Under the pieces are notes generated by a model, which did not search any database, was not told the DNA's origin, and saw only the letters and a list, made by a program, of their open reading frames with translations. Shown here in pieces: positions 30,244-60,296 of a stretch of 64,000 nucleotides of DNA (position 1 is its first letter; each line of letters starts with the position of its first letter). The DNA is from Balneolaceae bacterium. GTDB lineage: Bacteria > Bacteroidota > Rhodothermia > Balneolales > Balneolaceae. The translations under genes were made by a program, and so were the position numbers. The stretch spans positions 124,001 through 188,000 of the forward strand of contig JAXHMM010000006.1 of NCBI GenBank assembly GCA_034521445.1. Reading direction: 5' to 3'.

Positions 30244-31485
30244 TCAGGAACCGCCGGCGTAGCTGAACGTCAGCCGCACGTAGCGGTTCTGCCCGTAGAC
30301 CGTCTCCTGATCTCCGGAAGTGAGTTCGGGTGAACTTTCGCCCAGCGCCGTGGCGGTGATGCGGTTTCCACTCACGCCCTCATCGATCAGGAACTGGCGG
30401 ACTGCATCGGCCCGGCGTTGCGAGAGAGCCATGTTGTAATCCTCCGAACCGCGTGAATCGGCGTGTCCCTCGACCGAAACCCGCAGATCTTCGTACTGCG
30501 TCATGACTTCTGCGAGCAGCTCGAGATCGTCCTCCGCGTTCGCGAGAATCTCGGAGCTGTCGTAGCCGAATTCGATGTTATTCAGGATGTTCAGCAGCAT
30601 GTCACGAAGGTCCTGGCTGACCTGGGCTGTCATACCGCGGTCTTGCGAGAGCTCCTCGATGGCCTGAAGCGTCTGCTCGTTGAGCTCGCGGTTCTCCTGA
30701 GACACCTCATAGGAATTTTGGGCGGCCGACTGTGCGCCTTCCGCGGCCTGGCGTGTAGCCTGCATCTCCTCCATCATGTGCCGGTGCATCTGCATGCGCT
30801 GGCTGGTCTGATCGCCGCCTCCGAAGCGCAGGCGAATCCCGATGGTATTGGTGAGGAAGTCGTCGTGATCCTTGCCATCGATGTTGGTATGGGACAGATT
30901 GGCGTTGGTAAACTCACCGGCATCCTGCGGATAGGTATCTAAGTTATCCGAAAAGGTGCGGTTGTAGGTAATCTGATAGTTCAGGCTCACTTTATCGCTG
31001 AGCTCGTAGCTTACGCCCGCCCCGAAGGGAATGGCAAAGGCGCCACTGTTGGTCCCGTTTTCGTGCTTCAACACGTTCACGCCGATGCCGGCGGTCAGGT
31101 AGGGCTTCACGCCCAGGTCTTCCCGGAGGATGGACCCGTTGTTGAACTTGAAGCGGGTCATCAGGTTCAGCTGAAAATTGCTGGTCTTGAAGCGCGTGCC
31201 ACGTATGGCCGGATCGTTGGAGTTGGCCGGATTCACGTAATCCAGCTCCATTTTAGCGGCGCTGAACCCTAGATCCCAGGAGGGGCTCAGGTACTTTGAG
31301 AGGCCGATGCTCCAGAGGAAATCGGACTCGGAGGTGCCAAGCAACTCGTTGCCCAGATCTCCGTCATAAGCATGCGAGCCAATCTCCAGGTCCAGACTCC
31401 AAGGCTGATCCTGGGTCTGGGCCTCGACGGTGCCTGCGCCAAGTACAAGTATGGTCAGAAATAGTAGAGGTAGAAAACGTTTCAT
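30244..31485 (-). CDS. OmpA-family outer-membrane protein
   Basis: A 413-residue protein. Signal peptide 1-22 (LLFLTILVLGAGTVEA), an OmpA-like N-terminal barrel to about 230, a coiled-coil/Gln-rich linker (about 230-295), and a C-terminal OmpA peptidoglycan-binding domain from about 300 (NIEFGYDSSEI, VSVEGHADSRGSEDYNMALS, QRRADAVRQFLIDEGV). The D...R pair of that domain that binds diaminopimelate is visible in DSRGSEDYNMALSQRR. It anchors the outer membrane to the wall. The leader is about 165 bases long from the TATCTTTG box. Confidence 0.92.
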   Translation of the reverse strand: MKRFLPLLFLTILVLGAGTVEAQTQDQPWSLDLEIGSHAYDGDLGNELLGTSESDFLWSIGLSKYLSPSWDLGFSAAKMELDYVNPANSNDPAIRGTRFKTSNFQLNLMTRFKFNNGSILREDLGVKPYLTAGIGVNVLKHENGTNSGAFAIPFGAGVSYELSDKVSLNYQITYNRTFSDNLDTYPQDAGEFTNANLSHTNIDGKDHDDFLTNTIGIRLRFGGGDQTSQRMQMHRHMMEEMQATRQAAEGAQSAAQNSYEVSQENRELNEQTLQAIEELSQDRGMTAQVSQDLRDMLLNILNNIEFGYDSSEILANAEDDLELLAEVMTQYEDLRVSVEGHADSRGSEDYNMALSQRRADAVRQFLIDEGVSGNRITATALGESSPELTSGDQETVYGQNRYVRLTFSYAGGS

Positions 31486-49016: not shown

Positions 49017-49901
49017 TCAGCGTTCCTTTTGGGCGGTCTGGCGGGCGAAATCAGCAAGGGAGGTCTGGGGGCGACCCAGCTCCTTCCAGGTCTCCTCGGC
49101 GGCGAACTTCTCGTCGTAGTGGTTGATGGCTTTCAGGATCTGGTATTGGAAGTCAAGGGTATTGGAGAAAAATCCCATAAGACGGAACGGCCAGAGCGGT
49201 GACCACATGGTTTTGAGCTTACGGGCATCGTAGTGCTCGATGAACTCTTCAGCGGCCTCCCGCCAGTTGTAGGCGTCGGGACCCTGGATTACGTATTCAC
49301 GGTCGCTGCGGTCCTCCAGGCGGAAGGCGGCGGCCACCTGTTTGCCGTAGTCGGAGGCGCCCACCCACCAGCTCTGTGTTTTCTGGGAGCCGCCCAGCAT
49401 GATACGTCCCCCGCTCATTTGCAGTTCGGTAATGTTTTCGTAGAAATTGGAGGGGTAAAACAGCAGCGTGGTCAATTCAGAAGTCCGGAGCATGTCACAG
49501 GCCCGCCGCTGGTAATCGAATACCCACCAGTCGTAGTCCGAGTACTTGCATACCATGGAGGAGAGATAGCCGATACGGCGGACGCCGCTCTCTGCCGCAG
49601 CATCGAGCAGATTCCGCACGCCCTCCACCTGGGTGCGAAAATCGGCGTCTTGTTCATGTGGCCCCGTACTGATGCTCACGTAGAGACCGTCCATGCCCTT
49701 CATGCCTTCGAGGAGCGTAACCGGCCGGCGCAGGTCGGCACGCACCACCTCCACCTCGTCGGGCAGTACGCCCTTGGCCTTCCCTGGGTCGCGGACCAGT
49801 GCACGGACCGAAAATCCGGCCCGGTGCAGTTCGCGGGTGACATGCTTGCCCAGCATGCCGGTGGCCCCTATAACAGCGAGGGAGGAGACGGCATCGCTCA
49901 T
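49017..49901 (-). CDS. NmrA/SDR-type NAD(P)-binding protein
   Basis: A 294-residue Rossmann protein. The cofactor site is SLAVIGATGMLGKHVTREL, with the strand-2 basic residues RALVRDPGKAKG that favour NADP. Further SDR features are MDGLYVSIST and RIGYLSSM. The residue pattern resembles atypical SDRs (NmrA, HSCARG or quinone-oxidoreductase QOR2-like). Typical catalytic Tyr-x3-Lys is not obvious, so it may be a sensor or an isomerase-like protein. It is upstream of the S9 peptidase, 94 bases away. Confidence 0.88.
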   Translation of the reverse strand: MSDAVSSLAVIGATGMLGKHVTRELHRAGFSVRALVRDPGKAKGVLPDEVEVVRADLRRPVTLLEGMKGMDGLYVSISTGPHEQDADFRTQVEGVRNLLDAAAESGVRRIGYLSSMVCKYSDYDWWVFDYQRRACDMLRTSELTTLLFYPSNFYENITELQMSGGRIMLGGSQKTQSWWVGASDYGKQVAAAFRLEDRSDREYVIQGPDAYNWREAAEEFIEHYDARKLKTMWSPLWPFRLMGFFSNTLDFQYQILKAINHYDEKFAAEETWKELGRPQTSLADFARQTAQKER

Positions 49902-50078: not shown

Positions 50079-50921
50079 CTACTCCAGCACGAAACGGAAG
50101 GTAATGGTGCCATACTGCGACTGCTGCGGTACGCCGGAGGGCAGCCGCGAGAAGCGCCAGCTGCGTAGGGTGGAGATTACCTCACGTTCGAGCTCGGGAT
50201 TCATCTTGCGGGTGGGAACCATCTGGCCGATGGTGCCGTCGGGTTTCACTTCAAAGCGCACGGTGATGGTGGCTTCCACGTCGGCCGTGTTTTCGGGAAG
50301 GGGCTGCATCATGGGCGACCGTTCGATATCGCCCTCCCATTCAAGCTCGTAGGGAGAGGAGCGTTCCTGCTCATTGCCGGTGCCCTGGTCGGCGTTCACG
50401 TCGCCTTCGGTGCCCTCTACATCGCCGGAGATCTCGGCGCCCTCCTGGCGTGTGCTGTCCTCCTCCACCTTCGGGGGGACCACGGCCTCCTGCTGCTCCT
50501 GCTCAGCCGTCTGCCGTGTGGGGTCAATGACTTCGGTGTCGGGCGTGGTGACCTTCTGCTCGTCCTGCACGTTCTGCTGATCGGGGGCGTCCACCTGCTT
50601 GACCTCCTCTTCGGTGGCAGCCTGCTCCTCCTGCACCTCCTCCCGAGGTTCGGGCTGCGGATTCTCGGGCTGCTGCTCGGAGGGGTCGGGGCGGGTGGCC
50701 ACCTCCTCGTTGGTTACTTCCGAAAACTGGGCGCGCGTACCGCTCTGGTACTCCCCGAAGTCCACCTCGATAAAGGTGGTGCGCATGCGGTCATTGAGAC
50801 TGAAGGTGTAGAGAAGGAAGAAGATGATCATCACAAGGTGCAGAATACCCGTGACCAGCCAGCCGAAGCGCTCCTCGTCGGGGATGTTCCTGAGCAGAGG
50901 TATGTCGTCGAGAAAGTCCAT
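50079..50921 (-). CDS. TonB-family energy transducer
   Basis: A 280-residue protein. One inner-membrane anchor (about 24-44, GILHLVMIIFFLLYTFSL), a long Pro/Glu/Gln-rich periplasmic linker (70-190), and a TonB C-terminal domain (about 200-280: VEATITVRFEVKPDGTIGQM, PELEREVISTLRSWRFSRLP, ITFRFVLE). It follows ExbD by 20 bases, in the order ExbB-ExbD-TonB, and is the last gene of the HU/SPOR cluster. It should deliver proton-motive-force energy to an outer-membrane partner, for which the barrel encoded at the head of the cluster is the natural candidate. Confidence 0.9.
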   Translation of the reverse strand: MDFLDDIPLLRNIPDEERFGWLVTGILHLVMIIFFLLYTFSLNDRMRTTFIEVDFGEYQSGTRAQFSEVTNEEVATRPDPSEQQPENPQPEPREEVQEEQAATEEEVKQVDAPDQQNVQDEQKVTTPDTEVIDPTRQTAEQEQQEAVVPPKVEEDSTRQEGAEISGDVEGTEGDVNADQGTGNEQERSSPYELEWEGDIERSPMMQPLPENTADVEATITVRFEVKPDGTIGQMVPTRKMNPELEREVISTLRSWRFSRLPSGVPQQSQYGTITFRFVLE

Positions 50922-50941
50922 GTTGTGTTAGTGTATAGGGC

Positions 50942-51352
50942 TCAGGGCGTATTTCGTTCCGTAGCCAGCAATATAGGCATCTGAAGCGCGCCTGCCACGT
51001 TCATGACGCGCACCGCATTGTCGATAATCGCCTCCCTGTCCGCCCGCAGAACGAGCGAGGATCCCGGTTTGTTGCGGTAGGCCTCGCGGATGGCGTTGGT
51101 AAGCATGCCGCTGGTGACCCGCTCCCCGTCCACGAAATACTCGCCCTTGGCCGTAATGGCAACATTTACAAACTGCGAATCAGTCTGCGAGGAGGTTTCA
51201 GCCTCCGGCAGGTTGACCTTGATGCCGAAGTTGGTCACAAAGGAGGAGGTGAGCAGGAAAAAAATCAGCAGCAGGAGCACGATATCGGTCAGCGACGACT
51301 GCGAAAACAGCGTCAGGGGCTCCAGGCGATCGTCATCTTTACGAAAGTCCAT
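50942..51352 (-). CDS. ExbD/TolR-family transport protein
   Basis: A 136-residue inner-membrane protein of the proton-driven motor. One membrane segment lies at about 20-40 (SLTDIVLLLLIFFLLTSSFV) and carries the conserved aspartate, here in LTDIVLL. A periplasmic domain follows (INLPEAETSS-like VNLPEAETSSQTD, then LRADREAIIDNAVRVMNVAG). It starts three bases after the ExbB stop. The aspartate is essential for proton flow in the family. Confidence 0.94.
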   Translation of the reverse strand: MDFRKDDDRLEPLTLFSQSSLTDIVLLLLIFFLLTSSFVTNFGIKVNLPEAETSSQTDSQFVNVAITAKGEYFVDGERVTSGMLTNAIREAYRNKPGSSLVLRADREAIIDNAVRVMNVAGALQMPILLATERNTP

Positions 51353-51355
51353 GTC

Positions 51356-52087
51356 TTACACCTTCTCCCGTTCTTTCTTGGCAGAGGGGCTCTGCAGCAT
51401 GTCCACGAAATCAGCGGAAGCATTTTCCAGTTCGTGAACCATGCGGTTGATCTTGCCGAGCAGGAAGTTGTAGAATCCGAAGGCGATAATACCTACGATC
51501 AGTCCCGTGGCGGTGGTTATCAGCGCTTCCCAGATACCCCCGGCCAGCACGCTGGGGTTGACCTGACCCTGAAGGGACTGGATATCCATGAAGGCCTCGA
51601 TCATCCCAGTCACCGTCCCGGTGAAGCCGATCAGCGGGGCCACACCGGCAATGGTGGCAAGCCAGTTCATCCTTTTCTCCAGGTGGTAGATCTCCTTCTT
51701 GCCCGCATTGCGAATGGCGTCATCGATGTCGCGGATGGGACGTCCTAGGCGACGGATGCCCGCCTTGAGAATGTTCGCCAGGGGCTTGTCAACGCCATCG
51801 CAGTAGGTCAGCGCCCGTTGGCGGTCGCCGTCCTTGAGCATCCCCTCGATGGTGCGCAAAAATCCGTCGATCTCCATGCGGGAGTTGTTGAGTGAGCGCC
51901 ACCGCTCGGCAATTACATAGATGGCCAGAAAGCTCAGCAGGAAGAGGGGAATCATCAGTACGCCGCCCTCGGCCAGCAGCCCGAAGAAGGACATGGAATC
52001 CTGCTGGCTAGCCAGGCTGAGGGAATCCTGCAGGGTGGTGTCCATCTGCACCTGGGATTGAAAAAGAAGTAGGAGTGTGGGATGCAT
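51356..52087 (-). CDS. MotA/TolQ/ExbB-family proton channel
   Basis: A 243-residue protein with three membrane segments: one near residues 35-58 (AEGGVLMIPLFLLSFLAIYV) and a pair at about 145-170 and 190-215. The family-defining stretch LATIAGVAPLIGFTGTVTGM is followed by MIEAFMDIQSLQ and GIWEALITTATGLIVGIIA. Residues 1-30 are an extra periplasmic N terminus; internal Met codons at residues 15 and 32 could also be starts. It follows the HU-SPOR gene by 17 bases and partners with ExbD. Confidence 0.94.
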   Translation of the reverse strand: MHPTLLLLFQSQVQMDTTLQDSLSLASQQDSMSFFGLLAEGGVLMIPLFLLSFLAIYVIAERWRSLNNSRMEIDGFLRTIEGMLKDGDRQRALTYCDGVDKPLANILKAGIRRLGRPIRDIDDAIRNAGKKEIYHLEKRMNWLATIAGVAPLIGFTGTVTGMIEAFMDIQSLQGQVNPSVLAGGIWEALITTATGLIVGIIAFGFYNFLLGKINRMVHELENASADFVDMLQSPSAKKEREKV

Positions 52088-52104
52088 GTGTGGGTAGAAG
52101 TTAG

Positions 52105-53235
52105 CTATTGGATATTCCTGATAAAGTGGTCGCTGCGAAAGGGTTCGGAAAGTCCGTCGGCCGCCTCGCGTGCCTTGGTGATGCTTTCAAACTGCCCCAG
52201 CCCCACCCGCCAGTACTGCGTGCCCCCGACGGTGGTTGTCCGTACGGTCACCCTATACCCCTGCTGACGCAACTGATCCGCACGGTTTTCGGCGGCTGTT
52301 CGGTCGGCCAGGGAGTGCACGACGATGGCGTAATAGGAGGAAAGGTTGGTGTTCATATCGCCTTCCAGCCCGTAACCGGAAGACGACGCCTCCCCTCCTG
52401 CGGTAGTAACGTCTTCGCCGCCGCTTTGTTCCGTCTGCACGGCCTCCTGCTCCCCGGCAGCCTGCTCATCCTGCGAGAGTGAGGGGCGGTTGTCCGGTTC
52501 GGCGGGCGTCTGCACCGACTCCCCGGCTTCTGGTCCGGCGGGATCGAAAAGTCCGGAGTCCCAGGCCACCCAGCCGGCGGCTGCCACCGCAACGACAAGG
52601 ACCACGGCGGCCGCGATGCGTCCCAGGGATCCGCCCGATCGTTTATCCCGGCTGGTTTTCACATGACGGTTGTCCCGGCGGGAGGAAGGCGTCTTTTCAC
52701 CCGAGGAAGGCGGAACAGCCGCAGATTCTCCCTTCTTCTCCTGCGCTTGCCCCTCCTCTCCTGAGCGGTGGGCAGCCTCCCGGCGGGCCTTGGCGGCACG
52801 AGCCTTTATGCGGCTGCGGCGGGAATCCTCCTTTCCGCTGCCGGCATCTGCCGGATCGGCCTGACCGGTATCAAGTTCAAAACTTCTGGATGCCTCCCCT
52901 TTCTCATCAGAAGCGCCGGCTGCTATGACATCCTCCTCTCCCTGCGGCGTCTCCCCTGCAACATGCTGCTCCTTGTAGGCGCCGATGAGCTCGATGGGTT
53001 TCATCCCGGCATACTTCTGATTGATCTCAGTTCGGAGGGTACGGGAGGGTTCAAAGCTCAGTTCGCCCCCCTCCATTCGGAAGGTGCCAAACTGTTCGAT
53101 CTCGAAGGATCTGCCCTCTTTTGCAGCGCTGCGAATGCGCTCCATGAGCGTGTCCAGCTGTGCCTGTACTTCCTCCTTGTCCAGGCCCGATCGTTCGGCC
53201 AGCAGCGCTGCAAGCTGTTCCCTGTCGATCTTCAT
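52105..53235 (-). CDS. HU-domain/transmembrane/SPOR-domain fusion protein
   Basis: A 376-residue protein with three parts. Residues 1-90 resemble the HU/IHF DNA-binding fold (REQLAALLAERSGLDKEEVQ, EIEQFGTFRMEGGELSFEP, LRTEINQKYAGMKPIEL). A long charged linker (95-200), basic near the membrane, leads to a single membrane span (about 204-223, RIAAAVVLVVAVAAAGWVAW). The periplasmic part ends in a SPOR domain (about 299-376: YYAIVVHSLADRTAAENRAD, YWRVGLGQFESITKA), which in other proteins binds denuded septal peptidoglycan. Its ATG overlaps the previous stop (ATGA, 53232-53235). It links a potential chromosomal side to the cell wall. Confidence 0.9.
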   Translation of the reverse strand: MKIDREQLAALLAERSGLDKEEVQAQLDTLMERIRSAAKEGRSFEIEQFGTFRMEGGELSFEPSRTLRTEINQKYAGMKPIELIGAYKEQHVAGETPQGEEDVIAAGASDEKGEASRSFELDTGQADPADAGSGKEDSRRSRIKARAAKARREAAHRSGEEGQAQEKKGESAAVPPSSGEKTPSSRRDNRHVKTSRDKRSGGSLGRIAAAVVLVVAVAAAGWVAWDSGLFDPAGPEAGESVQTPAEPDNRPSLSQDEQAAGEQEAVQTEQSGGEDVTTAGGEASSSGYGLEGDMNTNLSSYYAIVVHSLADRTAAENRADQLRQQGYRVTVRTTTVGGTQYWRVGLGQFESITKAREAADGLSEPFRSDHFIRNIQ

Positions 53236-53426
53236 GAATGGTCCGGATTGAAAGTAATGGTGTCCCGGGGCGGCATCATAACCACCCGGCCGTCATCGTA
53301 CTGTTTCTGGAACTGGTTGCGGTGCTCGAAGCGAAAGTATCCGAGCCCGTCCAGGTGCACCTCGTTCTTCCGCAGCACCTGTTCTCGCACCACTTCCCTG
53401 AATGCCTGTAAAAATGCCTTTTCCAT
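53232..53426 (-). CDS. Small HU-like protein (64 residues)
   Basis: A complete short gene between the outer-membrane barrel gene (7-base gap) and the HU-SPOR gene (4-base overlap). MEKAFLQAFREVVREQVLRK followed by NEVHLDGLGYFRFEHRNQF and PPRDTITFNPD fits the HU-family N-terminal helices plus the start of the beta arm. It is too short for a full HU (about 90 residues), so the DNA-binding arm is truncated. It may pair with the HU part of the next protein, as HU subunits form heterodimers. The tight packing supports it being real. Confidence 0.8.
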   Translation of the reverse strand: MEKAFLQAFREVVREQVLRKNEVHLDGLGYFRFEHRNQFQKQYDDGRVVMMPPRDTITFNPDHS

Positions 53427-53433
53427 GCTCTCT

Positions 53434-55176
53434 TTACAGTTTTAGCGTGACGCCCCCGAAGACCTGCAGAGGACGCTCGGGGTAACGGTACCACATGCTG
53501 TAATTCTGGCTCAACAAGTTCACAATTTTTGCATACACCCCAAAATGGTCGCTGATCTCTACGTCAGCCCGCCCCCCCAGCAGAAAGACGGGATCGAGCT
53601 CCGCATCCAGGGTCTGCTGGCTGTTGGCCGGCCGGCCTCCCATGAGATCGGCCCAGCCCTCGACCTTGATATCGTTAATGGGACGAAATGAGATACTGCC
53701 GTTGAGCCCCCACGTTTCCATAAAGGGCACCCTATCGCCGCTGTGGTAGGACACCTCATCTACGAGGCGCGGTACCTGTAAGTAACCCTCGGCGTGGAAC
53801 CAGATGGTTTCGGCCACCAGGGCGTGGGAGACGCCACCGAAGATTCTGGCCACAGTCAGGTCATCGTAGTATACACGGTAATCGGCTGGAGGATCGCCGG
53901 CGGCCGCGGCCGCGGACAGGGCCCCTTCGTAGGCAAAAACGGGATTATTGTCGCCGTAGCGATAGCTCACTCCGCCATAGATCCGGCCCTCGTCGAAAAA
54001 GGCAAGGGAAATCTCGGCCGATCCGCGCATGTCGTAGCTGTGCCCCAACTCCTGTTCAATCTGGACAAAGCGGTTGCGGTCATAGAGCTGCCCGCGGCTA
54101 AAGAGACGGGGTGCGGCCTCGCCCTGCACCTGAAGCGTCAGGCGCTCGCTGATCCAGTACTTCAGGCTTAGGCGGGGTCCCGGAAGGACCGCGCTTTCCA
54201 TCGAATTGGCTACATAGTAGGCGCCGGCCTCGGCTGTTAGCCGGGTCGTATAGTTGAACAGCCGATCGTAGACAGCCGCACCGTACAGGGTGATCCAGCC
54301 GGTGGTCCCGTCGCCGATTTCATCGGAGTAGATGCCGCCGCGCACGTCGCCTTTCACCTGCCATGTTTCTCGCGGCTGGCTTCCGGCCCACTGGTAGCGT
54401 CCGCCCACCTCGTAGACGGCCTCATGCCCCTGGCGGATGCCTCCACCCTCATTCACCTTCATGCCGTTAAATTTCAGGTCGGCCCGGGCATCCCACCCTG
54501 TCACACCGTTGCGCATGCTGCGGAGTTCCGCCCCTAGATTGAAACCGGTAAGGCTGCGCTGGCCGTAGTCGGTGCTGCTGCCGGAAGGGGGAAATCCTGC
54601 GGAGTAGTTGAAGTCGCTTCGCATCCCCCCAAACACATCCAGCTGGGTACGGGCATCCAGCTTGGTGCCGAACTCCAGGTTGGCTGCAAAGTCCCGGTAC
54701 GTGCTTGGACGTTGATCCAGGTGGTCGTCCAACGAGGTGCTCAGATCGAGATCCATCCCTACGTAGCTGCGGTCCGACGGTTTGTAAAGGCCCCATAACT
54801 TCGCCTCCGGCGCGGTGTAGCTCCCGAAACCGGCATTTGCAAAAAGGCCGATGGGAGCGGAATAGGACATGGGCACATAATCGGGGGGGGCGGGGCGGGA
54901 GAGTTCGCTGACCGAGAGACTGGCCACCACATCGTCGCGAGACTCCATGAAGGGCATGCGGTCGGGGTCAATCTGGAAAACCCGGGGATTGGGATCGAAG
55001 CCCAGGATGGGCTGCCGGGTGAGCCCGGGGAAACGGGCGCGAAACTGACTCCGTATTTCGATGTCCTGCGGGTCGATTTCCGGGAGCAGGGTATTCTGGC
55101 CCTGCTCCTGCTGGGCATGTGCAGGCACGGTGAGGACCGCAAGCATCAGAAGTGGCAACAGGTACGATAGCCGCAT
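53434..55176 (-). CDS. Outer-membrane beta-barrel protein at the head of the HU/Tol cluster
   Basis: About 580 residues from the ATG at 55176, which begins a signal peptide (LSYLLPLLMLAVLTVPAHAQ). An ATG at 55212 would put 12 extra residues before it. There is a short N-terminal region (about 20-90: EIDPQDIEIRSQFRARFPGL, NPRVFQIDPDRMPFM) and then a strand-rich barrel ending in VFGGVTLKL. No plug domain or TonB box is visible, so it is not a standard TonB-dependent receptor. A possible -7 box (TACATTGC, 55213-55220) is just upstream. The following HU-like gene starts 7 bases after its stop. Confidence 0.8.
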   Translation of the reverse strand: MRLSYLLPLLMLAVLTVPAHAQQEQGQNTLLPEIDPQDIEIRSQFRARFPGLTRQPILGFDPNPRVFQIDPDRMPFMESRDDVVASLSVSELSRPAPPDYVPMSYSAPIGLFANAGFGSYTAPEAKLWGLYKPSDRSYVGMDLDLSTSLDDHLDQRPSTYRDFAANLEFGTKLDARTQLDVFGGMRSDFNYSAGFPPSGSSTDYGQRSLTGFNLGAELRSMRNGVTGWDARADLKFNGMKVNEGGGIRQGHEAVYEVGGRYQWAGSQPRETWQVKGDVRGGIYSDEIGDGTTGWITLYGAAVYDRLFNYTTRLTAEAGAYYVANSMESAVLPGPRLSLKYWISERLTLQVQGEAAPRLFSRGQLYDRNRFVQIEQELGHSYDMRGSAEISLAFFDEGRIYGGVSYRYGDNNPVFAYEGALSAAAAAGDPPADYRVYYDDLTVARIFGGVSHALVAETIWFHAEGYLQVPRLVDEVSYHSGDRVPFMETWGLNGSISFRPINDIKVEGWADLMGGRPANSQQTLDAELDPVFLLGGRADVEISDHFGVYAKIVNLLSQNYSMWYRYPERPLQVFGGVTLKL

Positions 55177-55345
55177 GGCTGGTCGGGTTCCGTCGGTGGA
55201 TTTTTCAGACATGCAATGTACGAATTTTTCGGCAATCCTTAATGGGCATTATAGCGCCCGGAGGGGCGGAGGTTTCGGCCCAAACCGCCGTGAGGCGTGA
55301 CATCTCCGGTCCCGCAGGCAGGTGCGTGTCCCCGCACTGGCGGGT

Positions 55346-56377
55346 TCAGTTCACCGGCTTCCCCTCGCGTGTCGCCACGTATTTATCCACTGCCAGTGAA
55401 AGAGGGGTGAATAGCGCCACAAAAAGTACGGTGGCGGCGTGAGTGATGGTGGCATAGGCCAGCCCGGTGACGGCCGGCACGGCGAAGAGTACCAGCAGGG
55501 TTTGCTTGACAAAGTAATGGTAGGTCCCGATGCCGCCTGGGGAGGGAATGGCGATACCGATGGCCGAGATGACGGTAACCACCAGTGCGTCCAGCAGGCT
55601 CAGGTCGTAAACGGTCTGCATGTCAAACATCCAGAAGGGGATCCACGACATGGCCGTATAGCAGGCCCAGATGAGCAGGGTATAGGAAAGGAACAGCCCC
55701 CACCTCTTTACCTGGCGGGCGGCCAGAATGCCGTCGCGGAACATGCGCACGGCGTTGCGGATGCGGTCCACCCAGGGACGGACAGACTCGAAGCGGCGGC
55801 CCAGGTAACACAGCAGGGACCAGCCCGCCCATCCCCCCAGTCCAAAGAGAAGCAGGAGGCCGACGATCCATAGCAGCTCCGTCAGGGCAAATCCTCCCGA
55901 AAACATACGCACCGTCTGCTCCCCAAAAATCTGCCGGAGCAGCTCAAGGTCTGTAATAAGGTAGATACATACCACCAGCAGAAGCAGCAGCATGGTGGCC
56001 ATGTCGATGATGCGCTCCAGAACGATGGTGCCCATCAGCTTGGAGGCGCTCAGACCCTCGCGTTTGGCCACATAGACCGGCCGGCTCACCTCTCCCAGAC
56101 GGGGACCCACGATATTCAGCAGGTATCCGGTGAGGACCCCGGCCACCAGGGTGGAGCGATTCAGTTCCTTCTTGTCATGCTCAATGAGCAATCTCCAGCG
56201 CTCAGCCCTCAGGAAATGCCCGGTCAGCAGGGTCAGTCCGAAGGGGGGCACCCAGTAGAAGGTGATCTGCCGGGCGTAGTCCCAGACCTCGCGGAGGGGC
56301 ACGTTGCGGAAAGCCAGCCAGAGGAAGAGTCCCCCAAGCAGCAGTGTTAATGCGATTTTGATCGATTTGCGAAGCAT
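55346..56377 (-). CDS. YbhN/UPF0104-type flippase-like membrane protein
   Basis: A 343-residue multi-pass membrane protein of the lysylphosphatidylglycerol-synthase transmembrane (YbhN) family. It shows LWLAFRNVPLREVWDYARQI near the start, TLVAGVLTGYLLNIVGPRLG and EVSRPVYVAKREGLS, then IPSPGGIGTYHYFVKQTLL near the end, all conserved in these proteins. There is no C-terminal catalytic domain, so it is not an MprF enzyme, and it may move a lipid across the inner membrane. It starts 5 bases after the LolA stop, in one transcript. Confidence 0.88.
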   Translation of the reverse strand: MLRKSIKIALTLLLGGLFLWLAFRNVPLREVWDYARQITFYWVPPFGLTLLTGHFLRAERWRLLIEHDKKELNRSTLVAGVLTGYLLNIVGPRLGEVSRPVYVAKREGLSASKLMGTIVLERIIDMATMLLLLLVVCIYLITDLELLRQIFGEQTVRMFSGGFALTELLWIVGLLLLFGLGGWAGWSLLCYLGRRFESVRPWVDRIRNAVRMFRDGILAARQVKRWGLFLSYTLLIWACYTAMSWIPFWMFDMQTVYDLSLLDALVVTVISAIGIAIPSPGGIGTYHYFVKQTLLVLFAVPAVTGLAYATITHAATVLFVALFTPLSLAVDKYVATREGKPVN

Positions 56378-56382
56378 TTGCC

Positions 56383-57036
56383 TCAGTTGCGCATGTCGAT
56401 AACCTCTGCGCCGTCAGGAGGATCCAGCCGAAAAAGGGCGGAGTCGGGACGGGCGAAGGCGCCGTCGCTGAAGGCGGTGGTAATGACGTTATCCGCGGGG
56501 TCGACCGCGCGAATGCGCAGGGGAATCAGGTCGGGGGTGAGCCAGATCTCCACCTGGCGGTACATGGCAAATGGGTCACCGGAAGTGAGCAGGATGTACT
56601 CGCGGTTGCCGCGCCGTTCCTGAGTTTCAACCGTAAAAGTGGAGTCCACCCCATTCAGAATGCGCGAAGGGGCGAAATCGTCGTCTTCCGGCTCGTAGGT
56701 ACTGATGATTACGCGGTTGCGGTTGCGGTCGTAGACCCGGGAGGTCTCCCCATCCACCACTACGGTTTCGTTGCCGGTCTGCACCTTATAGCGCTGCCGG
56801 CCCACCCAGATGCGCCCGCTGTCGGATGTGGAGTCGCCCGTAAAGGAATCCACGTAGGAGTGTGTAAAGGCGGCCGCAAAGATCTCCCCGTTCTCGAAAC
56901 GTTCCCTGAGCTGTTCGAAGGCCTCCCTGTTGGAATCGCCTCCCTGGGCGGTAGCAATCGAGGGATGCATCCCAAAGAGTGCCAGGACCGCCGGAAGAAG
57001 AATCGCCCATGCGGCGCTGCGCAAAGTAAAAGACAT
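56383..57036 (-). CDS. lolA: LolA-type outer-membrane lipoprotein carrier
   Basis: About 217 residues from the ATG at 57036 (the signal is RSAAWAILLPAVLALFGM). The ORF opens further upstream inside ftsK, but 57036 is one base after the ftsK stop and begins the signal peptide. The mature domain has LolA features: FEQLRERFENGEIFAAAFTH, GRIWVGRQRYKVQTGNETVV, RNRVIISTYEPEDD, VEIWLTPDLIPLRIRAVDPA and LFRLDPPDGAEVID. It carries lipoproteins across the periplasm from the LolCDE transporter, which is not visible here. It is between ftsK and the flippase-like gene. Confidence 0.9.
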   Translation of the reverse strand: MSFTLRSAAWAILLPAVLALFGMHPSIATAQGGDSNREAFEQLRERFENGEIFAAAFTHSYVDSFTGDSTSDSGRIWVGRQRYKVQTGNETVVVDGETSRVYDRNRNRVIISTYEPEDDDFAPSRILNGVDSTFTVETQERRGNREYILLTSGDPFAMYRQVEIWLTPDLIPLRIRAVDPADNVITTAFSDGAFARPDSALFRLDPPDGAEVIDMRN

Positions 57037-57037
57037 G

Positions 57038-59572
57038 CTATCGGTCAAATTCATCCAGGTCGTTAAGCAGTTGCTCCAGTTCATCCTCGTCGTCCACCAG
57101 CACGTCACGCGCCGTGCTTCCCTGGTAGGGTCCTACGACGCCTGCATTATAAAGTTGGTCGATGATACGTCCGGCGCGGTTATAACCGATTTTAAGTTTG
57201 CGCTGAAGAAGCGATACTGAACCCTGCTGGTGCAGTACCACCACCTTGGCGGCCGACTCAAAGAGTTCATCGATGTCTTCCAGCGGATCGGGGATGTCGC
57301 CGTCGGCGCTTTCATCATGTACAACGGGCAGGTGGTAAGGATGCTTGTATCCGAGCTGTCCGCCGATAAAAGCGGTGATGCGCTCCACTTCCTCGGTGGA
57401 GACATAGGCGTTCTGGATGCGGGTCATGCCGCCGCCGTTGGTGAAGAGCATGTCTCCGTTGCCGATGAGCTGGTCGGCCCCTCCGATGTCAAGGATAGTG
57501 CGGGAGTCCACCTTGGAAGCAACCTGGTAGGCAATTCGCGCGGGAAAATTGGCCTTGATCGTGCCGGTGATCACGTTCACCGAAGGCCGCTGGGTGGCCA
57601 CCACCAGGTGGAGTCCTACGGCCCGGGCCAGCTGCGCCAAGCGTGCGATGGGCTCCTCGATCTGCTTGCCCGCCGTCATCATCAGGTCCGCCAGCTCGTC
57701 GATCACTACGACAATATATGGCAGGTGGCGGTGGCCCAGCTCCTCATCCAGCTCCCCGTTGTCAAACTTCTCGTTGTAGTCCTTGATGTCGCGCACCATG
57801 GCCATCTTGAGCAGTTCGTAGCGTTCGTCCATTTCCTCGGTGAGGCTCTCCAGGGTTTCCTGCGCCTTGGAGGTGTCGGTCACAATAGGTTCCTCGGCTC
57901 CAGGGAGGGTGGCCAGAAAGTGGTTCTGAATATGGCGATAGAGGGAAAGTTCGATCTTCTTGGGGTCCATCAGCACAAACTTCAGGTTGTCCGGATGGCA
58001 CTTGTAGAGCAGGCAGGTGATGATGGTGTTGATGCCCACGGTCTTTCCGGATCCTGTGGCGCCGGCAATCAGCAAGTGGGGCATTTTGGTCAGGTCCACC
58101 ATAAAGACCTCGTTTTCGATGGTCTTGCCGAAAGCCAGGGGCAGTTCAAAGTCGGTCTCCACGAACTTCTTGGTATTGATGACCGTCTTCATGTAGACCG
58201 TTTCGCGTGCGCCGTTGGGCACCTCGATGCCCACGGCCGAACGGCCGGGAATGGGAGCAATGATACGCAGCCCGTGGGCGGCGGTGGCCATCTTCAGGTC
58301 GTTGGCATAGCTCTCAATCTTGGAGATCTTCACGTCCGGCGCCGGATCGAGCTCGTAGAGGGTGACCGTAGGCCCCACAATGGCGTTGATGCTGCGAATC
58401 TCGATCTTGTGGCGCTTCAGCTTGTCAAGGATGATACGCTTGTTATCCTTGATCTCCTGCATATCCACCTCATTCCCATCGTGAGGCGGGGAGTCGAGCA
58501 GGTCAATGGAAGGAAACTTGTACTTGATTTCGGGGATATCCCGGGCCTTGTCCTTGTTCTGGCGCTCAAGGGCGCGCTGGTCGGCCTCCTCCTCGCCCTC
58601 GCCCACAAAGACCGAAATATCCACATCGTCCTCCTCTTCCTCGGCCACCTTGCGAGTATCATCTTTGTCAAGAATGGCGCGGGTACGCGTATCGAGAGAC
58701 TGCACCTCCTGCTGTTCGCGGTGGCGGCGCTCCTCGTCTTCCTTCTGCGACTCCTCCACGATGTCGTCGATGCTCCGAGAGGGGGCCTGGGCGCCGTCAC
58801 TGCCCCGCTGGCCGCCCCCCTGTTCGGGCCCGCGCTTCTGCACAGAAGGGGAGGTGGACTCGTCCCTGACCTTCTTTTCGGCCTGCTGGCGGGCCTCCAC
58901 CTCACGCTGGCGTCCGCGCTCCTCGCGGCGGCGGCTACGCTCCTCAAGACGTTCCTCCCAACGCCCCTTCATAGCGGCAAACCAGCTCTTGACGCGGTCG
59001 ATGGATTTCTGCAAATCACGGTCCAGCACCATCATGGCCGTGACTACAAGCATCACCAGCAGGATAAGAAAGGCGCCCCAGTTGGTAAAACGGTGCAGCA
59101 GGTAGGCGGCGCCCAGCCCCGACTGTCCGCTCCAGTTGGAGGAGAGCCAGCCGAACTCGTTGTTGAGAAGTCCCAGCGAGGTGGCGAGCAGCACCATGGT
59201 CCACAGCCCCACGGAGATGGGCCAAACCATATCACGGACGTCCCTGCAGCGGAATACCATCCAGCCAAAGCCCACCACCAGCAGGGAGAAAATCACGCTG
59301 ACATATCCAAATAGACTGTAGACAAAGAAATGCGAAAGGTAGGCGCCCAGCACGCCCAACCCATTCTGCACCCGAAGGGCAGGACCCCCCTCCATCGAGG
59401 CGATGCTGCCCGGGGAAAGAGATTGCACGTACCCGTAGTCGGCCGGGTGATAAGTCAGGATGCTCAGGGCCACCAGGGTACCGATGGCCATGATCAGAAT
59501 GCCCGCGATCTCCAGCTTTCGGGTGCGGGAGATCCCGCCGAGGAAGGAGGCCGACTTATTCTTGCTTGCCAT
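57038..59572 (-). CDS. ftsK: DNA translocase FtsK/SpoIIIE
   Basis: About 844 residues. Four N-terminal membrane spans (to about 190), a charged linker (about 200-350) and the motor domain: Walker A LLIAGATGSGKTVGINT, Walker B region IVVVIDELADLM, AVGLHLVVATQRPSVNVITG and the KVDSRTILDIGGADQLIG segment. The C-terminal gamma winged-helix domain (SLLQRKLKIGYNRAGRIIDQ, then GVVGPYQGS) reads the KOPS sites. The ATG at 59572 is chosen; one 8 codons upstream (59596) overlaps comB further. It pumps DNA at the division septum and is upstream of lolA with a single-base gap. Confidence 0.95.
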   Translation of the reverse strand: MASKNKSASFLGGISRTRKLEIAGILIMAIGTLVALSILTYHPADYGYVQSLSPGSIASMEGGPALRVQNGLGVLGAYLSHFFVYSLFGYVSVIFSLLVVGFGWMVFRCRDVRDMVWPISVGLWTMVLLATSLGLLNNEFGWLSSNWSGQSGLGAAYLLHRFTNWGAFLILLVMLVVTAMMVLDRDLQKSIDRVKSWFAAMKGRWEERLEERSRRREERGRQREVEARQQAEKKVRDESTSPSVQKRGPEQGGGQRGSDGAQAPSRSIDDIVEESQKEDEERRHREQQEVQSLDTRTRAILDKDDTRKVAEEEEDDVDISVFVGEGEEEADQRALERQNKDKARDIPEIKYKFPSIDLLDSPPHDGNEVDMQEIKDNKRIILDKLKRHKIEIRSINAIVGPTVTLYELDPAPDVKISKIESYANDLKMATAAHGLRIIAPIPGRSAVGIEVPNGARETVYMKTVINTKKFVETDFELPLAFGKTIENEVFMVDLTKMPHLLIAGATGSGKTVGINTIITCLLYKCHPDNLKFVLMDPKKIELSLYRHIQNHFLATLPGAEEPIVTDTSKAQETLESLTEEMDERYELLKMAMVRDIKDYNEKFDNGELDEELGHRHLPYIVVVIDELADLMMTAGKQIEEPIARLAQLARAVGLHLVVATQRPSVNVITGTIKANFPARIAYQVASKVDSRTILDIGGADQLIGNGDMLFTNGGGMTRIQNAYVSTEEVERITAFIGGQLGYKHPYHLPVVHDESADGDIPDPLEDIDELFESAAKVVVLHQQGSVSLLQRKLKIGYNRAGRIIDQLYNAGVVGPYQGSTARDVLVDDEDELEQLLNDLDEFDR

Positions 59573-60296
59573 GGCTGTCTGTAATGATTCCTTCATGCAT
59601 GGCCGGCAGAACGTCGGTGACGCTCAGCTCCGCGCAGTAGCGCAGGTCCTCGCTCCCTACAATGTCCTGCAGCCGGGACGCATGGTTCGATGAAAACACA
59701 ACTTTCTCAATATCATCACCAAATTTTTCAAAAAGACCAAAAGCGACCTTGGCCCCGTCGCGCGCGTCTTCAGACAGACTCCCTTCGCTAAGTTCGTGAA
59801 TAATATTACCGGCACAAAGTAAATCTTCGATGGAGAGCCGTCCCCGCCACCCCGCGCAGACCAGCACAATATCGTTGCCGGACTCCCGCAGCCGGCGGAC
59901 CAGGGCGTCCAGGTTGCGGAAGCATCCCACGTATACCTCCCCGGCGAGGCTGCAGCGTTTCAACGCCTTGGTGCCGTTGGTGGTGTTGAGAATCACGGTA
60001 TGTCCCCCCACCGTTTCAGGAGTGTACTCCAGGGGAGAGTTGCCCAGATCGTAACCCTCGATGGTCACCCCGTCCTTCTCCCCGCAGAGCAGGTAGTGGG
60101 AGGAGTCCAGCCCCTGCGAGATGCGTCCCGCCGCGTCCATGTCCCCTACCGGGATGACGCCTTTGGCCCCGTTTTCCAGGGCGGCCACAATGGTGCTGCT
60201 GGCCCGGAGCACATCGATCATCACGGCGGTTTTGCCCCGCAGCTCATCCTCCGAAAAGGCCTGCGCGGCCGTAAATACTTCCACTCCCGTACTCAT
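59556..60296 (-). CDS. comB: 2-phosphosulfolactate phosphatase-like protein
   Basis: A 246-residue protein with the ComB pattern: TAVMIDVLRASSTIVAALEN near the start, LCGEKDGVTIEGYDLGNSPL, VILNTTNGTKAL and CAGWRGRLSIEDLLCAGNII. The archetype hydrolyses 2-phosphosulfolactate to sulfolactate in coenzyme M biosynthesis, which this bacterium probably does not make, so a different phosphoester or a sulfonate pathway is likely. Its stop overlaps the start of ftsK by 17 to 41 bases depending on the ftsK start. It follows gcvT by 54 bases. Confidence 0.9.
   Translation of the reverse strand: MSTGVEVFTAAQAFSEDELRGKTAVMIDVLRASSTIVAALENGAKGVIPVGDMDAAGRISQGLDSSHYLLCGEKDGVTIEGYDLGNSPLEYTPETVGGHTVILNTTNGTKALKRCSLAGEVYVGCFRNLDALVRRLRESGNDIVLVCAGWRGRLSIEDLLCAGNIIHELSEGSLSEDARDGAKVAFGLFEKFGDDIEKVVFSSNHASRLQDIVGSEDLRYCAELSVTDVLPAMHEGIITDSHGKQE

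Follow-up and report, generated by a model that had tools for sequence, protein, structure and literature searches.

The Tol system couples septal wall synthesis with constriction of the outer membrane (PMC4458516), and in E. coli the transmembrane (TM)-SPOR protein FtsN contacts TolQ (PMC3831626). In a 2025 survey, no tol-pal loci could be identified in Bacteroidetes, raising the question of how the Bacteroidota, a phylum with dominant members of the gut flora, manage invagination and anchoring of the outer membrane in the absence of Tol-Pal (PMC12204202). Here we analyzed a window of 64,000 nucleotides from a Balneolaceae bacterium (contig JAXHMM010000006.1, positions 124,001 to 188,000 of the forward strand; coordinates below are those of the window). 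Six minus-strand genes in it encode an outer-membrane β-barrel, a small HU-like protein (HU1), a protein with a second HU domain, a TM helix and a SPOR domain (HU2-TM-SPOR), and ExbB, ExbD and TonB homologues. We propose, with a probability of roughly 0.5, that this operon is a Tol-like trans-envelope force-transduction machine of the Bacteroidota, which overall would draw the outer membrane to the wall.

All six open reading frames (ORFs) were confirmed in the 50079-55176 region. The intergenic gaps, read from the barrel gene to tonB, are 7, -4, 17, 3 and 20 nt, and the overlap is an ATGA shared by the HU1 and HU2-TM-SPOR genes. The first-pass annotation had thus described the layout correctly (one strand, gaps of 20 nt or less, one ATGA overlap), as well as the position of the cluster after ftsK, lolA and a flippase gene. 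MotA_ExbB, ExbD, TonB_C, SPOR and, in both HU proteins, the HU-type PF00216 all exceeded the curated Pfam cut-offs.

The order barrel, HU1, HU2-TM-SPOR, ExbB, ExbD and TonB is kept in the window and in 28 Balneolales relatives from 24 genera and five families, the sole departure being a locus cut by a contig end (L052). Balneolales, to which the window belongs, is also the order of Fodinibius, Balneola, Gracilimonas and Rhodohalobacter. Among 80 named Balneolales loci, which were located via the barrel, 69 contain the full six in order, nine are ended by the contig, one has a split ExbD and one is without a detected HU1; the median gaps are 3, -4, 12.5, 2 and 5 nt. The split ExbD (L107) consists of two ORFs of 45 and 71 amino acids (aa) in an otherwise complete cluster, reflecting a frameshift or an assembly error. 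ComB-like, FtsK, LolA and flippase genes precede the cluster in most Balneolales as usual, not constant, neighbors, and the flippase gene overlaps the barrel gene at 15 of 71 loci. At Gracilimonas-type loci (L070, L074, L079, L087), the ftsK block lies outside the stretch covered and the six genes are still together. Since the six stay together where the ftsK block has moved away, they constitute the unit.

Conservation extends beyond the order. In a phylum-wide sample, the barrel and ExbB genes lay 8 kb or less apart in at least 83 of the 112 genomes that had both genes among the matches listed. On the same basis, these comprised 35 of 35 Balneolales, 20 of 21 other Rhodothermia (the exception has the two genes on separate contigs) and 28 genomes from six further families (f18, f19, f22, f34, f37 and f40; loci among L144-L179). 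Five loci from outer Bacteroidota families (L162, L167, L169, L174 and L175) carry barrel, SPOR and TonB genes together with no ExbBD next to them, perhaps as a minimal form of the unit; no HU domain was detected in the SPOR proteins of the four that were scanned (L162, L169, L174 and L175). We relied on these adjacency counts because the raw tally of barrel matches (212 of 247 genomes) takes in ordinary TonB-dependent transporters (TBDTs); the matches that inflate it include a plug-bearing receptor in L168 and matches in green sulfur bacteria, and the tally was not used as evidence. The tight packing and gene order recur across the whole order and beyond it, far above chance. Conservation of the order, which the first-pass annotation had named as a check, was therefore found within Balneolales and Rhodothermia. 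The barrel gene is separated from the ExbBD genes in several of the other Bacteroidota families.

The barrel ORF spans 53434-55212 on the minus strand, with a likely start at the ATG at 55176, which opens a signal peptide. The AlphaFold model (mean predicted local distance difference test score, pLDDT, 77.5; >85 over most strands) contains approximately 22 strands from residue 123 onward; residues 27-118 are unfolded or disordered, and there is no folded plug. A Foldseek search against the PDB returned only TBDTs as top matches, with E-values down to 7e-18, and no Pfam or NCBIfam model matched the barrel, including the Plug domain. The protein is thus predicted to be a TBDT-type barrel without an N-terminal plug, and the two structural analyses agree with the first-pass annotation on this point. 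The conservation pattern is inverted relative to that of a transporter. Among 106 barrels, 24 of the 42 columns conserved at 95% or more are located in residues 37-90, where mean entropy is 0.64-0.89 versus 2.2-2.7 over most of the barrel. This near-invariant periplasmic segment (54943-55089, minus strand; LLPEIDPQDIEIRSxFxxRFPGLxRQPILGFxPxPRVFxIDPxRMPFxE) includes the invariant residues D50-I51-E52-I53. The motif DIEIRS (D50-S55; 55048-55065, minus strand) is present in 102 of the 106 barrels of the Balneolales set, and diverse homologues carry VEIRG, FVITG, FIIQG and similar sequences at the same place, shortly after the signal peptide. TonB-box-like matches occurred in 22 of 34 diverse homologues, compared with a mean of 3.1 and a maximum of 8 in shuffled sequences. 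The motif looks like a TonB box, suggesting that TonB may bind the barrel there. If the operon works as proposed, it would also exemplify the conversion of a TBDT barrel from transport to a mechanical or structural role.

These features could also be explained by a TonB-gated channel: an open 22-strand barrel, closed by its N-terminal segment or by a partner, would be opened by ExbBD-TonB for export or import of large substrates, with the SPOR protein as wall anchor of the motor. The TBDT fold suits such a channel. With no plug, a barrel this large would form an open pore if nothing closed it, and there is a near-invariant stretch at residues 42-90. Moreover, protein secretion in Myxococcus needs the TBDT Oar (PMC6434023). 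However, no substrate gene accompanies the operon, which is present throughout Balneolales, and sequence divergence is unconstrained in the extracellular and barrel parts but not in the fixed periplasmic segment, a pattern more in keeping with a handle than with a selective pore. We consider a gated channel rather unlikely.

The motor subunits score nearer to those of Tol than to those of Ton. ExbB (51356-52087, minus strand) matched MotA_ExbB in Pfam (E=1.3e-31) and scored 97.1 bits with the NCBIfam tolQ model versus 59.2 bits with exbB, the former being below the tolQ equivalog cut-off of 221; a PDB profile search also ranked TolQ first, above ExbB. ExbD (50942-51352, minus strand) matched the Pfam ExbD family (E=4.8e-23) and slightly favored tolR (51.5 bits, below the equivalog cut-off of 127) over ExbD_2 (46.2 bits). 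By these scores, TolQ/TolR are nearer to the putative motor than ExbB/ExbD are. The predicted TonB/TolA-like force transducer (50079-50921, minus strand) consists of a TM helix, a long acidic, Gln-rich periplasmic linker and a TonB C-terminal domain. Its TonB_C match (E=1.2e-6) is above the cut-off and is the weakest among the six TonB_C genes of the genome; tolA_full matched below its cut-off (32.9 bits), over the TM and linker only.

The genome also contains a second motor of the ExbB-ExbD-ExbD type, a flagellar MotA and five other TonB_C genes. In the ExbB tree, the cluster ExbBs formed a clade distinct from the ExbB of the second motor; MotA and the second ExbB were on very long branches, and only the cluster-ExbB clade was used. 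The second, non-flagellar motor is located at L062 (G000:C3:616501-636000) in the order ExbB, small membrane protein, ExbD and ExbD, adjoining apparent rpsF, rpsR and rplI genes. L183, L185 and L186 (G000:C5:428945-430886) are three TonB genes in tandem, of which two or more closely copy each other. With ExbB, ExbD and TonB_C all present in the cluster and multiple TonB genes in the genome, the operon might be read as a housekeeping Ton energizer, with the barrel and SPOR genes as incidental neighbors. The second motor and the five additional TonB_C genes indicate that the cluster motor is not the only Ton energizer of the genome. Furthermore, the motor scores nearer TolQ/TolR, the gaps are near zero across Balneolales, and the barrel and SPOR genes stay together even at the five loci without local ExbBD. 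A housekeeping role is thus quite improbable.

The first-pass annotation treated the two HU genes as separate parts. HU1 (53232-53426, minus strand; 64 aa) matched PF00216 above the cut-off (E=1.4e-5) and HU-CCDC81_bac_1 below it. HU2-TM-SPOR (52105-53235, minus strand) matched SPOR (E=5.9e-10) and PF00216 (E=1.3e-7) in Pfam. Both CCDC81_bac HU types were detected, below the cut-off in the window, and the second type exceeded it in L158. HU1 and HU2-TM-SPOR form a single ORF in two genomes, G019 and G025 (L051:8993-10504 and L053:7179-8732), and the window HU1 aligns with the N-terminus of the fused protein of L053 (40% identity, E=8e-11); at L158 and L170, both HU types are in a single protein after the barrel. 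Because fused orthologues exist and HU1 aligns with the N-terminus of the fusion, the two genes are the split form of one HU1-HU2-TM-SPOR protein of a known architecture (HU-CCDC81_bac_1 plus _2), and not separate parts.

The predicted structure of HU2-TM-SPOR comprises an HU fold, a TM helix at residues 203-226 and a SPOR fold, and its HU domain matched HU structures in Foldseek with a target TM-score of approximately 0.8. The HU fold, whose absence the first-pass annotation had named as refuting its proposal, is therefore found in the model, and together with the conserved gene order it supports the claim of a conserved and apparently undescribed trans-envelope system. A single TM helix with positive-inside flanks was found in 112 of 132 homologues, indicating that the N-terminus is cytoplasmic and the SPOR domain periplasmic. 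On the minus strand of the window, the cytoplasmic HU domain corresponds to 53235-52996, the TM helix to 52629-52558 and the periplasmic SPOR domain to 52341-52108. FtsN has the same topology, with a cytoplasmic N-terminus, a single TM helix and a periplasmic SPOR domain. Glycan binding by the SPOR domain is predicted from the sequence and the fold match.

HU domains on the cytoplasmic side, together with ftsK close by in most Balneolales, raise the idea that they attach to the chromosome and, perhaps with FtsK, link the position of the nucleoid to constriction of the outer membrane. A computational study of the HU superfamily from 2017 reportedly predicted a chromosome-partition role for CCDC81-like HU proteins of Bacteroidetes and may have noted the HU-SPOR fusion. 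However, the RNPxTG intercalating arm was found in 0 of 115 HU1 and 0 of 88 HU2 domains, neither of which is basic (median charge 0 and -6, respectively), and the Gracilimonas group no longer has ftsK linked to the cluster. Moreover, no HU domain was detected in the barrel-adjacent SPOR protein of eight outer-lineage loci that keep the barrel (L156, L157, L160, L162, L169, L171, L174 and L175). These observations suggest that HU is an optional module and that DNA binding is unlikely as the core function; coupling to the chromosome is very unlikely. Of the first-pass proposal that the machine couples the chromosome or septum to the outer membrane, the chromosomal part is therefore weak. The part concerning the septum and outer membrane is plausible, given the SPOR domain, the TolQ/TolR-like motor, the FtsN-like topology and the overlap that some genomes show with the ftsK-lolA-flippase genes.

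Regarding the Tol-Pal components themselves, the TolB_N model, which is insensitive, found no match in the window genome or in any sampled Balneolales genome. In the phylum, TolB_N matches were mostly in family f23, which the FMO protein marks as green sulfur bacteria, and these bacteria are without the barrel family of the cluster. Neither TolB nor Pal was among the genes called in the cluster, and proteins with OmpA domains are encoded elsewhere in the genome. One of three such proteins has its match at 30325-30570 of the window (minus strand), in a 413-aa ORF whose N-terminal part looks like a barrel. A lipoprotein with calcium-binding repeats and a lipobox-like YGC (L181:1757-2305, minus strand) shares its stretch with an OmpA domain match; it is a possible Pal-like tether whose ORF call has a frame problem. 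A TolQR-like motor combined with a SPOR protein of FtsN type and a partner in the outer membrane fits the Tol constriction scheme.

We propose the following mechanism for the Tol-like machine. ExbB and ExbD would spend the proton gradient to move TonB, which would span the periplasm and grip the TonB-box-like N-terminal segment of the plugless barrel; the barrel would serve as an outer-membrane handle, not as a nutrient pore. The HU-TM-SPOR protein would bind (septal) peptidoglycan via its SPOR domain and hold or recruit the motor there, probably at the septum. The two HU domains, produced from translationally coupled genes, may pair as a cytoplasmic dimer, which would more likely mediate contacts between proteins than bind DNA. 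As a result, the outer membrane would be drawn towards the wall, most likely during constriction.

Several points weigh against this proposal. SPOR domains occur also in proteins that are not limited to the septum. The barrel is apart from ExbBD in several families (f21, f24, f26 and f29, among the matches listed), the five barrel-SPOR-TonB loci are without ExbBD, and in most non-Balneolales Rhodothermia TonB does not directly follow ExbD; the missing ExbBD or TonB presumably act from other sites of the genome. The TolQ and TolR scores are under the NCBI equivalog cut-offs, the insensitivity of TolB_N makes the absence of TolB supportive only, and of the other OmpA-domain proteins of the genome one is likely a lipoprotein. 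The function is inferred from sequence and models. Finally, PorE has been proposed as the tether between outer membrane and peptidoglycan in Bacteroidetes (PMC12204202).

The operon is nevertheless a testable candidate for the missing outer-membrane constriction machine of the Bacteroidota. It offers concrete candidates for the motor, for the anchor in the wall and for the partner in the outer membrane, as well as a short, conserved peptide open to mutation, so that the question can be tested directly. Tentatively, Bacteroidota might do without Tol-Pal because a separate machine serves in its place, a SPOR-fixed TolQR/TonB motor pulling via a plugless-barrel handle; we regard this wider reading as possible rather than probable.

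The genes upstream of the cluster (ComB-like, FtsK, LolA and LPG_synthase_TM flippase; 55346-60296, minus strand) were assigned by Pfam matches for FtsK, LolA (below the cut-off) and the flippase, whereas ComB is a label given without a Pfam test. Downstream of tonB, an NmrA-like gene (49017-49901) adjoins the cluster in 0 of 28 relatives. A scan for promoters and terminators gave no excess over shuffled sequences. We found no published description of the operon in a search that covered few subscription papers; within it, neither work linking CCDC81-HU to SPOR nor work linking SPOR to ExbBD in Bacteroidetes yielded anything on it. SPOR and ExbB are absent as terms from the papers on Bacteroidota BAM that were examined, and the passages located there describe no matching barrel. 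The operon is apparently undescribed and, in kind, a Tol/Ton-type system.

Comparison with known systems places the operon between several of them. Like Tol-Pal (TolQ-TolR-TolA-TolB-Pal-CpoB), it pairs a putative TolQ/TolR-like proton motor with a predicted TonB/TolA-type transducer spanning the periplasm, and its SPOR partner recalls the contact between TolQ and FtsN in E. coli (PMC3831626). In contrast to Tol-Pal, it contains neither TolB nor Pal, an integral TBDT barrel without a plug takes the place of its outer-membrane partner, and the SPOR gene is inside the operon. It shares TonB_C, a TBDT-type barrel and a TonB-box-like N-terminal motif with the Ton system (ExbB-ExbD-TonB and TonB-dependent transporters), but it has one dedicated, plugless barrel per operon, an attached SPOR protein and a motor that scores nearer to TolQ/TolR.

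The SPOR protein resembles FtsN and other TM-SPOR division proteins in its cytoplasmic N-terminus, single TM helix, long disordered periplasmic linker and C-terminal SPOR domain. Unlike these, it has a CCDC81-like HU domain as its cytoplasmic part, the gene before it encodes another HU, and its operon includes a proton motor. The HU-HU-TM-SPOR proteins of the HU-CCDC81_bac family in Bacteroidota (Pfam PF18174/PF18175) share the two HU types and their order, ahead of TM and SPOR, and are fused in L051, L053, L158 and L170; in contrast, in the window and most Balneolales the first HU has a 64-aa gene of its own, with translational coupling to that of the second. The cluster domains differ from DNA-binding HU/IHF in that they have no RNPxTG arm and are not basic. 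Finally, the PorE tether has also been proposed to fill the missing role of Tol-Pal (PMC12204202). PorE is a lipoprotein without a motor, whereas the operon provides both a motor and a partner in the outer membrane; the two could be complementary.

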